The position numbers and the translations under genes are program-made. This document shows, piece after piece, positions 22,649-42,830 of a stretch of 64,000 bases of DNA; positions within the stretch are counted from its first letter, which is position 1, and each line of letters opens with the position of its first letter. Below the pieces are notes generated by a model. That model was given only the letters and a program-made list of their open reading frames with translations, was not told the origin of the DNA and did no database searches. The stretch is from Sphingopyxis sp. OAS728. GTDB taxonomy: Bacteria > Pseudomonadota > Alphaproteobacteria > Sphingomonadales > Sphingomonadaceae. The stretch lies in contig NZ_JADBDT010000001.1 of assembly GCF_014873485.1 (NCBI RefSeq), forward strand, positions 4,148,501 to 4,212,500, written 5' to 3'.

Positions 22649-22673
22649 GGAACTTTCACCGGGATTCGGCGTT
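22649..22673 (+). promoter_or_regulatory. EcfG promoter, perfect consensus (GGAAC-N16-CGTT) for DUF1328
   Basis: GGAAC 22649-22653, 16-bp spacer, CGTT 22670-22673, 100 bp before ATG 22774. It matches the general-stress consensus exactly. Confidence 0.75.
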
Positions 22674-22773
22674 GAAACGGCATCCAGCGAGGATGAACGG
22701 ATGGCGGTTTTCGCCAGCCCGGCAGCGCATGCCGGGCGAGGAAGGCGCGCGTCCAAAAAATGAGGAGAATGAC

Positions 22774-22944
22774 ATGTTCAGATGGGCAATCATATTCGCG
22801 GTGATCGCGCTCGTCGCGGCGCTTCTGGGGTTCGGCGGGATCGCGGGTCTGTCGGCCGAGTTTGCGAAAATCCTGCTCATTATTGCTGCGGTCCTGTTCG
22901 TGGTTGCACTGGTCTTCGGCCGCGGGCGCCGCACGCTCCCGTAG
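22774..22944 (+). CDS. DUF1328 small membrane protein (YtjA-like)
   Basis: 56 residues from ATG 22774 with TGAGGAG as ribosome site. Two hydrophobic segments ([19 protein letters not shown] and [18 protein letters not shown]) flank a short turn, the DUF1328 pattern. These small inner-membrane proteins are commonly stress-regulated. A perfect EcfG promoter (22649-22673) lies upstream. The molecular function is unknown. Confidence 0.9.
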
Positions 22945-39051: not shown

Positions 39052-39933
39052 TCAGCTCGTAAGCGCAATACCAAGGCGGAAGGCGCGCCGTGCGGCGGGA
39101 GCGAGCCGCATAATGCCCGGCTTGTGCCAGATTTCGCCCGAGAAGCCGATCGGGTCGGCCATTCCCGCCCAGGGCTCGATGCAAAGATAGCGCGCACCCG
39201 GTTTCTGCCACAGGCCAAGCCAGGGCGTATCCGGAAATTCGAGCCGAATATTGGGCTCGCCGGCGACGCCCCATAAGAGGCCCCGGCTGTTCAGCCTGTC
39301 CCAGATGAGTGCGTCACGTTCGAACATCGCGGCGTCAGGGACAAGTTTGCGTCCGGCGACCGGGCTCGCCTCCGTCGTTGCGGCGATGAGGCCGGTTCCC
39401 GTTGCGGTCCGCCGAATGTCGGCAGCTTCGTCCTCATCGAAGAGAATATGATGGCGATCGGCCGGAGAACCGAATGGGAGGGGCCAGGCAAATGCTGGAT
39501 GGAAACCGAAGCTGAACGGCATAGCGCGATCACCTTCATTGGCGACGGTGATCGTGATGTCCAGGCGTGCGTCGGAAAGGCGAAATGACGCGGTCAGCCG
39601 GAAGTCGAACGGATAAATGGCGCGGGTCTCATCGTCGGCAGCGAGTTCGAGCACCAGGCTCCCGGATGTTCGCTCGACGAGCGCGAACTTCCTTCGGCGC
39701 GCGAAGCCATGTTGGGCCATCTCGTAGGTGCGGTGATCAAGCTCGTAGGAATCCCCCGCGAGCCGGCCGACAATCGGAAAAAGCAGAGGAGCGCGGCCCG
39801 TCCACCAGCGCGGGTCGGCGTCGGTCATCAACTCGCGGCCCTCGCGGTCGGTCAGCGAACTCAGCTCCGCGCCCAGCGGGTTGATCGCTGCGGTCAAGGC
39901 GCCGCTCTTCAGCTCGATCCAATCATCCGTCAC
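39052..39933 (-). CDS. Aldose 1-epimerase family protein
   Basis: 293 residues from GTG 39933, chosen because AAAAGGAACGTC precedes it and the protein then reads VTDDWIELKSGALTAAI; ATG starts at 39951 or 39969 are alternatives. Catalytic His residues are in AQHGFAR and GFHPAF, with Glu in CIEPWAG, as in galactose mutarotase-like enzymes. It converges with manA (20 bp between stops). Sugar-mutarotase or hexose-6-phosphate epimerase activity is likely. Confidence 0.85.
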   Translation of the reverse strand: MTDDWIELKSGALTAAINPLGAELSSLTDREGRELMTDADPRWWTGRAPLLFPIVGRLAGDSYELDHRTYEMAQHGFARRRKFALVERTSGSLVLELAADDETRAIYPFDFRLTASFRLSDARLDITITVANEGDRAMPFSFGFHPAFAWPLPFGSPADRHHILFDEDEAADIRRTATGTGLIAATTEASPVAGRKLVPDAAMFERDALIWDRLNSRGLLWGVAGEPNIRLEFPDTPWLGLWQKPGARYLCIEPWAGMADPIGFSGEIWHKPGIMRLAPAARRAFRLGIALTS

Positions 39934-40050
39934 GACGTTCCTTTTCTGCATCCGGCTCGCATCGGGCATGGATCGGCGGCGATATCCGTGTGGTTGCGAC
40001 AATAGATGCCGATGGCTCGATGCTGCATGAGATGGTTATTTTTGCAAGCC

Positions 40051-40076
40051 GGAACAAAACGCTATCCCCTTACGTT
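40051..40076 (+). promoter_or_regulatory. Perfect EcfG promoter (GGAAC-N17-CGTT) with no gene downstream
   Basis: GGAAC 40051-40055, 17-bp spacer, CGTT 40073-40076. The nearest downstream feature in this direction is the terminator hairpin at 40160. No open frame with a ribosome site follows. Confidence 0.65.
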
Positions 40077-40082
40077 CGCAAT

Positions 40083-40192
40083 AGACCGACGGGACGTCGC
40101 GCTTGCGCCGCTCCGCCGAGACCCCTGCAAAGCGCGTCGGCAGTCGCGATTTTGCTCTTGCGCCGGCGGCCTCAAGGTCGCCGGCGCCTTTT
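40083..40192 (+). ncRNA. Candidate stress-induced small RNA
   Basis: Inferred from a perfect EcfG promoter ending at 40076 (predicted start near 40083) and a terminator hairpin at 40160-40187 followed by CTTTT. The transcript would be about 110 nt. No open frame with a ribosome site lies within it, and flanking protein genes are on the opposite strand. Self-complementary segments such as CGACGGGACGTCG suggest folding. Similar GGAAC-controlled sRNAs are known in other alphaproteobacteria, but no known family is recognised here. Confidence 0.5.
40160..40192 (+). terminator. Rho-independent terminator in the 39.9-40.3 kb gap
   Basis: GCGCCGGCG (40160-40168) pairs perfectly with CGCCGGCGC (40179-40187) around a 10-nt loop and is followed by CTTTT. 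Both flanking protein genes read away or into it on the minus strand; the T-run serves the plus strand. Confidence 0.75.
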
Positions 40193-40258
40193 GCATTTAG
40201 AGTTACGAATGGCGGTGAACGGGGCGGTTCCGCAGGTTGCTGCCAACAGCGGTAGCCC

Positions 40259-42484
40259 TCACTCCCAGCTGACAAGCAATCTTCCGTTCGCCGGGACATG
40301 AAAGCTGACCTTGTCAGCCGAGGTCTCATGGGCGCGCAGCATGTCGCCATCGATCGTGCTGATCTTCGCGGGGGTGAGTTTTCGCCGTTTTCTGCGGATG
40401 AGACTCAATCCCGCGACGCATGTTTCACCGCCATCGAGCGTCACGACCAATGTGCGCGGTTCGGTGCGTTCGATCGCCCGGACGAAATGGTCGCAGTAGA
40501 GAAGAAAGGGCGCGTCTTCGACATGGTGAAATGCGCGGCTTGCGAAGATGAACGCTGCGCCGGCGCCGTAGATTTCCTGACCGACCTGCCCCGCAGGCTG
40601 GCCGTCGGGGTAGAGGTCCTCGAGCGGGAAGGAAAGCTTGCGATCGACATGGCCGTTGTTTTCGCGCTGCTCCTTGGCGATCGCCTCGGGGGGGAGCTCG
40701 TCGGGATAATAATGGATCGCCCGGTGGAGGGTGTAACGGCAATATTCCGCAAGCAGCATCCGCGCCGCAGGTTCGAGGTCGGGGCCGCTGTCGTCGAGAT
40801 AGCGCTCGAAAGCGATGAAGCTGTCGAAGCATTCGTAGATCGCCATATAGGGTGCGTCCTGCAGGCAGGTCACGCCCATGAAATTGCTGTAGTGGGCCGC
40901 ATGGCCGAGGCGGCTCTCCCAGATTTCGCAATTGTGAAAGAAGCTCGCGAGATAGACGTAGCTTTGTTCGAGATACACGTCGCGGTTGGTGACCCGCCAC
41001 AGACGCATGCAGGCGGCGGCCCCCCAGGCGGTGAGGTTGGCTTGGTAGTTCAGGGCGAAGCCGAGACCTATCGCTGCGTCGATCGCGGCACGTGCCTCGT
41101 CGAGGAAGCGCTTGTCAACGGTGAGCTCGAACGCTTGAAGCATGACCCAGGCATAGACCCCGCCGACATCGGTCTGGCCGCGCCCGTCGGCTCCCGCCGT
41201 TTCGGTGATCACCGTGAAGTCCGTAACCTTATACTGGACGGGCCATTTATATCCAAAATGATGCGCCGCGCGGATGCCATAGTCGAGCGAATCCAGGAAC
41301 AGGCGCTTCGCTTTCGCATTCCCATTGAGTGCAAGCTTCCCGAGGTTCAGAAGCGGGTGGTAGAGGTACCAGCTGTCAACGGCATCCGCGTCCTTGTCGT
41401 TGCCGACATTGGGCAGGTAGCGCCGGATTGTCCCCAGCTTCGCGTCGTAGAAGCGGCCCATCCCGGCCATGAACTCGGTTTCGAGCGGGTGCGTCTCACC
41501 GGACCAAAGGCCCCAGTCATGAAGAGCGGAGACGATCGACATCTGCACCATCGCATCGGGATATTCGGCTGCCGTATAGGGATGGACGTAACGATGCCCA
41601 TAGTGGCGGATCGTTGCCTCGGGTGCTTCGTCGAGATCTCGCAGCGTGCGTACCGCCCGCCGGAGCCAGTCGCGATATTCGGCGGGCGGCAGGTCGAGCG
41701 ATTTGTAAGCGGTGCCAAGCATTTGCAGGAAGTGCCGCGCGCTGTCCCGCTCGTCGGACGGAAAATCCGGACGCAGGACAAGGATCGCGTCCGAGACGAC
41801 GAAGTCCTGGCCTGCCGGCAGCAGCTTCGGCTCGGGCGCGCCGCGCTGCGGCGGCGTCGGCAGCAGGAAGCCGAGTTCGGGCCAGATCCCGCCCACCGCG
41901 TCTTCGGGCTTGGTTTCCGTCGCCAGACAATAGTCGTTCAGTGACGTCAGATTCTGGAAATAGAGAATGTTGCCGAAGCGAGGGCGCTCAAGCTGGAAAT
42001 AGAGAAGACCGGAGTTAAGGCCGCGCTGCGATGCCTCGATCGTTCCTTTGGCGGCGAGGGGTTCGTCGCGGGCTCCGAGGGCGAAGAGGTCGCGTGGAAC
42101 AAAAGGGAGCGAGGTGTCGGCGGTCGGCGTAAAGCGAACGATCACGCGAAGCGAAGCATGCTCCTCGCTGCGGATGCGTAGCCTGATGTCCTGCACGCCG
42201 AGACCATTGCTGACCCGTACCCGCGCGATATCGCCGGGCTGTGGTTCGAGCCGCTCGAATTTCGCATCTGAAGCGGGAAGAGAAACTCTTATCGCGAGCC
42301 CGCCTGCCCCGTCGGAGCGTCTCGCGACAGCCCACAGCGCATCGGGCCCGGCGCGGAGCTCAACGCCTAGATCGCCGGCCGAGAAAGTCGCCAGCCTTTT
42401 GCTTTCGTTGCCGAGCGCCTTGCGCAGCGCGAGCAGCCCCGGGCTCGCCGGGAGGGCGGGATCCTGATCGGCTTTCGTCGCCAT
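40259..42484 (-). CDS. Large (alpha/alpha)-barrel-like protein, possible glycoside-processing enzyme
   Basis: 741 residues from ATG 42484, preceded by AAGGAGA; the frame is open further upstream without a ribosome site. Residues about 1-300 are beta-rich (LRVIVRFTPTADTSLPF), and about 300-640 helical hairpins (WYLYHPLLNLGKLALNG, TDVGGVYAWVMLQAFEL, YECFDSFIAFERYL, HRAIHYYPDEL) resemble six-hairpin glycosidases. Catalytic residues could not be assigned. An EcfG-type promoter and TAACCTG dyad lie upstream. The mannose genes nearby suggest glycan metabolism. Confidence 0.65.
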   Translation of the reverse strand: MATKADQDPALPASPGLLALRKALGNESKRLATFSAGDLGVELRAGPDALWAVARRSDGAGGLAIRVSLPASDAKFERLEPQPGDIARVRVSNGLGVQDIRLRIRSEEHASLRVIVRFTPTADTSLPFVPRDLFALGARDEPLAAKGTIEASQRGLNSGLLYFQLERPRFGNILYFQNLTSLNDYCLATETKPEDAVGGIWPELGFLLPTPPQRGAPEPKLLPAGQDFVVSDAILVLRPDFPSDERDSARHFLQMLGTAYKSLDLPPAEYRDWLRRAVRTLRDLDEAPEATIRHYGHRYVHPYTAAEYPDAMVQMSIVSALHDWGLWSGETHPLETEFMAGMGRFYDAKLGTIRRYLPNVGNDKDADAVDSWYLYHPLLNLGKLALNGNAKAKRLFLDSLDYGIRAAHHFGYKWPVQYKVTDFTVITETAGADGRGQTDVGGVYAWVMLQAFELTVDKRFLDEARAAIDAAIGLGFALNYQANLTAWGAAACMRLWRVTNRDVYLEQSYVYLASFFHNCEIWESRLGHAAHYSNFMGVTCLQDAPYMAIYECFDSFIAFERYLDDSGPDLEPAARMLLAEYCRYTLHRAIHYYPDELPPEAIAKEQRENNGHVDRKLSFPLEDLYPDGQPAGQVGQEIYGAGAAFIFASRAFHHVEDAPFLLYCDHFVRAIERTEPRTLVVTLDGGETCVAGLSLIRRKRRKLTPAKISTIDGDMLRAHETSADKVSFHVPANGRLLVSWE

Positions 42485-42597: not shown

Positions 42598-42830
42598 ACG
42601 GAATATCCGGCGCGCGGGGCGAATGGCTCAGTCCGGTGCGCAACTATCGATTCGAGGGCTCGTTGCTTCTATGCGCCCGCGCTTCGGAAAGCGTGCGGCA
42701 GACTTTCAGCAAAGGAGCGGGCCGGCCCTGCTACGCTCGCAGCGCCAAAGCCGTTGCGCGGAGGCGAGAATGGATCCAGCGGCCAGCGCCGATCTTAAAG
42801 CGGTAAGCCGTGCAGTTTGTGGGTATTACC

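Follow-up and report, generated by a model that had tools for sequence, protein, structure and literature searches.

The PhyR-NepR-EcfG switch of the general stress response (GSR) is well established, and in the small RNA (sRNA) GsrN the contact with the katG leader is made by a C-rich loop. The genus Erythrobacter belongs to the sphingomonads. The accessible text of the work on GsrN describes GsrN as a Caulobacter sRNA dependent on sigma-T/EcfG, with positions numbered up to 106, which pairs with the katG leader; its homologues retain a C-rich 5' loop, GsrN-like sRNAs with a C-rich loop under sigma-EcfG are predicted in other alphaproteobacteria (rhizobia and Brucella), BLAST matches to GsrN are confined to Caulobacteraceae, and no apparent gsrN-like gene is present in the out-group, Erythrobacter litoralis (PMC5869019). 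In Sphingopyxis, the part of the literature available to us describes SuhB of Sphingopyxis granuli TFA, a trans-encoded sRNA of 61 nt that is highly conserved in the genus and growth-rate regulated (PMC6563040). In the study of the Sphingopyxis GSR, neither sRNA nor small RNA occurs as a term in the accessible main text (PMC7083833), and our literature search over partly accessible sources found no EcfG-dependent sRNA of Sphingopyxis. Here we describe a candidate for such an RNA, located in a stretch of 64,000 nucleotides of Sphingopyxis sp. OAS728 (RefSeq: GCF_014873485.1, contig NZ_JADBDT010000001.1, positions 4,148,501 to 4,212,500), called the window in the following. The genome is a single contig of 4.92 Mb, in which the window lies at 4.15-4.21 Mb.

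The element shares with GsrN an EcfG-type promoter, a similar length, an intrinsic terminator and an exposed C-rich segment. It differs from GsrN in that its C-rich segment ACCCCU is predicted in the linker between two hairpins and not in a 5' loop, and, unlike a typical gsrN, it is located far from the GSR locus, since the NepR matches of this genome are at 2.02 and 3.56 Mb. With SuhB the predicted element has in common that it would be a trans-encoded sRNA of Sphingopyxis, and it is unlike SuhB in length, in conservation and in the predicted mode of regulation.

We lean towards reading the element as a small RNA gene that stands by itself and belongs to the EcfG regulon; its product would be a noncoding RNA of about 110 nt acting in trans; as an EcfG-dependent small RNA it is a plausible and good, if unproven, candidate. 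From the layout we infer induction under stress. PhyR would remove NepR, and RNA polymerase with EcfG would transcribe from near 40083 to 40192; the product would be a noncoding RNA that is stable. By analogy with GsrN, this RNA would most likely act in trans, the exposed ACCCCU pairing with G-rich, ribosome-binding-site-like stretches of target mRNAs. If the RNA is real, the stress response of sphingomonads gains a post-transcriptional arm.

The promoter motif, the terminator and their common orientation can be read directly in the DNA (Table 1). The sequence GGAACAAAACGCTATCCCCTTACGTT at 40051-40076 on the plus strand is GGAAC-N17-CGTT without mismatch, and it is the sole N17 match in the window. 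The initial annotation had described it as a perfect, plus-facing promoter that no plus-strand gene follows, and this holds: the gap between the two predicted neighbours, both on the minus strand as had been stated, spans 39952-40258 (307 nt) and contains no predicted plus-strand gene. The GC hairpin with a T run noted at 40160-40192 is also present. It starts 84 nt past the last base of the motif and consists of 12 pairs, 11 of them GC, with a TCAA loop followed by CTTTT. On the minus strand the tail of the same hairpin is AAGAGCAA, which contains no T, and the terminator suits the plus strand only. Neither ATG nor GTG occurs within 40083-40192; for the TTG codons ahead of the terminator a simple test found no ribosome site, and their frames continue through it. 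By inspection the predicted RNA is noncoding, in agreement with the earlier statement that no ribosome site or plausible open reading frame (ORF) lies in this interval.

Table 1. Features of the candidate small RNA locus, in window coordinates.
Feature	Position	Strand	Remarks
EcfG-type promoter	40051-40076	+	-35 GGAAC 40051-40055, N17, -10 CGTT 40073-40076; exact match
Predicted small RNA, ~110 nt	40083-40192	+	start predicted from the -10 box, 3' end set by the T run
Predicted 5' hairpin	40087-40118	+	minimum free energy (MFE) structure
Exposed C-rich segment ACCCCU, candidate pairing region	40121-40126	+	unpaired probability ~0.7-0.9; function inferred
Predicted middle hairpin	40127-40155	+	MFE structure
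Intrinsic terminator	40160-40192	+	stem of 12 bp at 40160-40187, followed by C and by TTTT at 40189-40192; minus-side tail free of T
Divergent neighbour, aldose 1-epimerase family protein	39052-39951	-	Pfam: PF01263, 99.9 bits
Large conserved protein, convergent with the RNA	40259-42484	-	no Pfam or NCBIfam match

NepR of the switch is encoded in this genome, with two matches over the cut-off, one of which has an internal stop; one EcfG site ends about 160 nt ahead of a NepR match, and others lie ahead of small ORFs, which also speaks for the promoter. Counting exact N16/17 matches across the genome gives 59 sites, fewer than for the pattern read backwards (88) and for two other arrangements (83 and 67), so that the count alone is no evidence for promoters. 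The placement of the sites is more informative. We compared the first 30 of the 59 motif sites with the first 30 of the 83 sites of a control pattern (CAAGG-N16/17-TTGC), using the same crude gene finder for both. A same-strand gene follows within 300 nt at 12 motif sites and at one control site, 11 motif and 23 control sites are inside coding sequence, and 19 motif sites are outside predicted coding sequence versus 7 control sites. A first control count had placed 10 of the 30 control sites in gaps, and because several of these were gene-finder errors, the narrower count of sites upstream of a gene was used instead. When the whole set of 59 motif sites is counted less strictly, 36 are outside predicted genes, a figure inflated by the same kind of error. 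It is the placement (12/30 versus 1/30) and not the count that exceeds the control, which supports the presence of genuine EcfG promoters of this type in the genome.

Besides the motif itself, we considered its combination with a terminator, defined as a strong T-tailed hairpin that lacks a same-strand gene within 300 nt upstream and is preceded, at a distance of 40-280 nt, by an exact motif. Outside predicted genes, 402 kb of the organism's own sequence contain 24 hairpins that are strong and T-tailed, of which 19 come after a same-strand gene and five do not. An exact EcfG motif stands at the required distance before two of these five orphan hairpins, the one in the window and one at genome position 3142303; this proportion is biased, as the stretches that make up the 402 kb, except for the window, were chosen for holding the motif. 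By chance the combination is expected about 0.12 times per genome and about 0.0016 times per 64 kb, an estimate resting on a crude gene finder and on five orphan hairpins including that of the window; with this basis, the combination looks to exceed chance.

The second locus (L108:3004-3251, plus strand) has its orphan T-tailed hairpin 190 nt beyond the EcfG site.

A search with a covariance model built from the window element alone (R1) gave matches at E<=1 in 32 of the 80 genus genomes, including its own. Most of them are weak, and among them are six near-identical intergenic loci. A second model built from these six loci (R2) has a match at E<=10 in 76 of the 80 genomes and at E<1e-7 in 71, six of which supplied the model and match by construction. 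From 98 matches, five antisense or overlapping ones were dropped and the window was set apart, leaving 92 copies (78 distinct), which are the better-scoring among the matches listed and do not represent weaker copies. The family of small RNAs uncovered in this way has copies of about 123 nt, with a core GCGACCCAGAAGAGCTCTTCCTC..CTTCATCT, a terminator and a shared promoter-like block TTTTGGCG..TACAAT. Among these listed matches, both hallmark segments (the GCGACCC type and the CTTCATCT type) occur in all 92 copies, a TTTGGCG-type element, which belongs directly before TACAAT or TCCAAT, in 89 and one of these two starts in 86; all 92 are outside genes predicted by the crude finder, and none has an EcfG-like site within 70 nt before it. 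On 27 diverse copies 20 base pairs were predicted, of which eight persist through two-sided changes, six of them in the terminator stem, in a count that is uncorrected for relatedness.

The window element may be a far-diverged copy of this multicopy, genus-wide family, in which the promoter-like block was replaced by an EcfG promoter. This kinship, which is compatible with an EcfG-driven sRNA acting in trans, we regard as tentative. The element resembles the family in length, in its terminator and in a weak end-to-end similarity. A third model (R3), for which 27 copies were taken from other subfamilies to avoid the circularity of R2, matches 40077-40196 end to end with 21.7 bits (E 3.1e-4), the only match in the window at E<=10, and the best R3 match in 338 kb of own sequence, with the copies and their antisense hairpins excluded, has 15.5 bits. 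Shuffling the 5' part while leaving the terminator intact gave 800 sequences, one of which reached the global profile score of the element against the other subfamilies. R1 in turn matches copies at 19 of 36 family loci (15.4-29.2 bits), but it leaves the copies at the other 17 unmatched and gave 18.6 bits to a stretch that is not a copy. Furthermore, the element has another promoter than the family, lacks both hallmark segments and has neither a TTTGGCG-type element nor TACAAT or TCCAAT, whereas even the degenerate copy in its own genome (L117:1667-1790) retains recognisable hallmark segments. With local profile scoring, 44 of 600 shuffles attained the score of the element; once the terminator was left out, 398 of 600 did. 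Moreover, the link first came from a search for resemblance, in which the top scorer (L181) is not matched by R2. Two seemingly strong results were discarded as circular, because the loci involved had been chosen for resemblance to the window element: its R2 score (34.0 bits, E 5.4e-8) and a shuffle test against one relative (0 of 1,000).

As both hallmark segments are missing and the local profile test is not significant, the element is not filed as a family member, and nearness to the family is a possibility to which we give limited weight. Equally tentatively, the element could be a stress-wired, fast-diverged paralogue of this so far unreported family, in which an EcfG promoter took over the position of the family promoter and the core was freed to change. 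If true, the swap puts one family member under the general stress response.

An independent sRNA gene of the EcfG regulon also has to be weighed against chance, that is, an exact motif that happens to stand upstream of a four-T hairpin and gives no transcript or a non-functional one. We consider this rather unlikely. Shuffled windows contain 0.49 N17 matches on average, with at least one in 41 of 100 shuffles, so the motif of the window alone is within chance expectation, as is the genome-wide count given above. The missing conservation and the frequency of orphan sites, both treated below, likewise speak for chance. The rarity of the motif with a strong orphan terminator and the excess of motif sites outside predicted coding sequence argue against it.

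There are several points which weigh against the sRNA gene. The spacer has 17 nucleotides, where 18 of the 27 sites judged promoter-like have 16; this length apart, the motif agrees with GGAAC-N16-CGTT, the GSR consensus of Sphingopyxis granuli in the accessible part of that study (PMC7083833), which speaks for the promoter. The tail of the terminator has four T only, and the overall fold of 40083-40192 (MFE -53.8 kcal/mol, z -1.85) is not exceptional, with 8 of 200 shuffles equally stable. As a class, orphan EcfG sites, which are neither coding nor upstream of a gene, do not exceed the control, with 7 of 30 motif sites (three with small ORFs) versus 6 of 30 control sites, several of which may be genes that the finder missed. 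Finally, conservation of the block 40083-40192 in related genomes, which had been proposed as a check, was not found: apart from its own genome, the element has no DNA relatives in 80 genus genomes (E<=1e-4) or in 397 family genomes (E<=1e-5). Relaxed to E<=0.01, the search matched short stretches (22-38 bases) in 11 of 59 genomes besides its own. Five of the short matches, own genome included, were inspected; three lie inside long ORFs, two of them in what we take to be a response-regulator gene and one presumably in a prolyl-tRNA synthetase gene, and two were viewed as sequence only. The short matches were rejected as relatives of the element, three of the five being coding sequence. The conclusion of the initial annotation, that this is the layout expected of a stress-induced sRNA, is thus upheld in part, by NepR, the promoter placement, the plus-only terminator and the noncoding character, and not by conservation or by the orphan class.

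Comparing the conservation of the element with that of its flanks is not applicable here, because the search did not find the flanking pair together elsewhere in the genus. Of the 80 genus genomes, 4 carry the aldose epimerase gene (E<=1e-40) and 18 the convergent one (E<=1e-50), own genome included in both counts. The three remaining genomes with an epimerase gene do not have the pair side by side within the ~1.5 kb examined. In a syntenic relative (Sphingopyxis sp. MSC1_008, L051) different small ORFs occupy the corresponding gap. The element was also sought at 44 named loci with the convergent neighbour and rejected, as the best local alignment (32) is below that of a reversed-query control (38). 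Thin conservation is compatible with function, since an element with an EcfG site at genome position 4541403 is likewise found in only 2 of 79 other genomes, in one of them weakly; it is 73% conserved in G035 (L178), its EcfG site included.

This element (L119 from 3004, plus strand) has GGAAC-N16-CGTT and a downstream hairpin. It may represent a small RNA, or else a small ORF that begins with MCKTPRRSL.

It is improbable that the hairpin instead serves the convergent gene (40259-42484, minus strand) as a 3' end structure and that the promoter match is accidental. The hairpin sits 72 nt past the stop of this gene, and some strong hairpins without T runs do follow genes in this genome; against this, its T run is on the plus side only, and many of the T-tailed gene terminators listed are at most 50 nt away from the stop. 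A small-protein gene at the site is very improbable, given the missing start codons described above, even though the other orphan-looking EcfG sites at 550001, 976298 and 840548 are followed by small ORFs, the first two presumably entericidin-like and the third, a membrane-type ORF of 57 aa, presumably DUF1328-like (12 of the 13 orphan sites, all but 2710606, were inspected for ORFs).

The Rfam scan of the site at gathering and relaxed thresholds returned two implausible matches far under the gathering scores, and in the window as a whole only a tRNA scores above threshold. In 19 further loci (17 of them family loci) Rfam gave two matches, anti-hemB (21.9 bits) and ctRNA_pGA1 (32.4 bits), both below threshold. 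Our search of partly accessible literature found no multicopy sRNA family of sphingomonads. The family is probably the bigger lead and merits a separate study. In the genome of OAS728 its copies are L239:1373-1496 (-), L240:1424-1550 (-), L241:1516-1638 (+) and the degenerate L117 copy (-), and copies in relatives are found in L182-L185, L191, L199 and many of L215-L298.

The convergent protein, for which no Pfam or NCBIfam match was found at E<=1e-3, has relatives at the 44 named loci, mostly in sphingomonads and in a few other alphaproteobacteria. A paralogue with 65% identity is encoded in the same genome at 1492410-1494587 (minus strand, L139), with an EcfG site 54 nt before its predicted start.

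Two further promoter-like sites were noted in the window. An exact GGAAC-N16-CGTT at 22649-22673 (plus strand) lies upstream of the gene 22729-22944 (plus strand), whose product matches DUF1328 in Pfam and which is likely to be a general-stress target. At 42640-42664 (plus strand) GCAAC-N16-CGTT faces a Crp/Fnr-type regulator gene at 42810, and GCAAC is one of the two commonest -35 boxes of the Sphingopyxis granuli regulon according to the accessible part of its description (PMC7083833).
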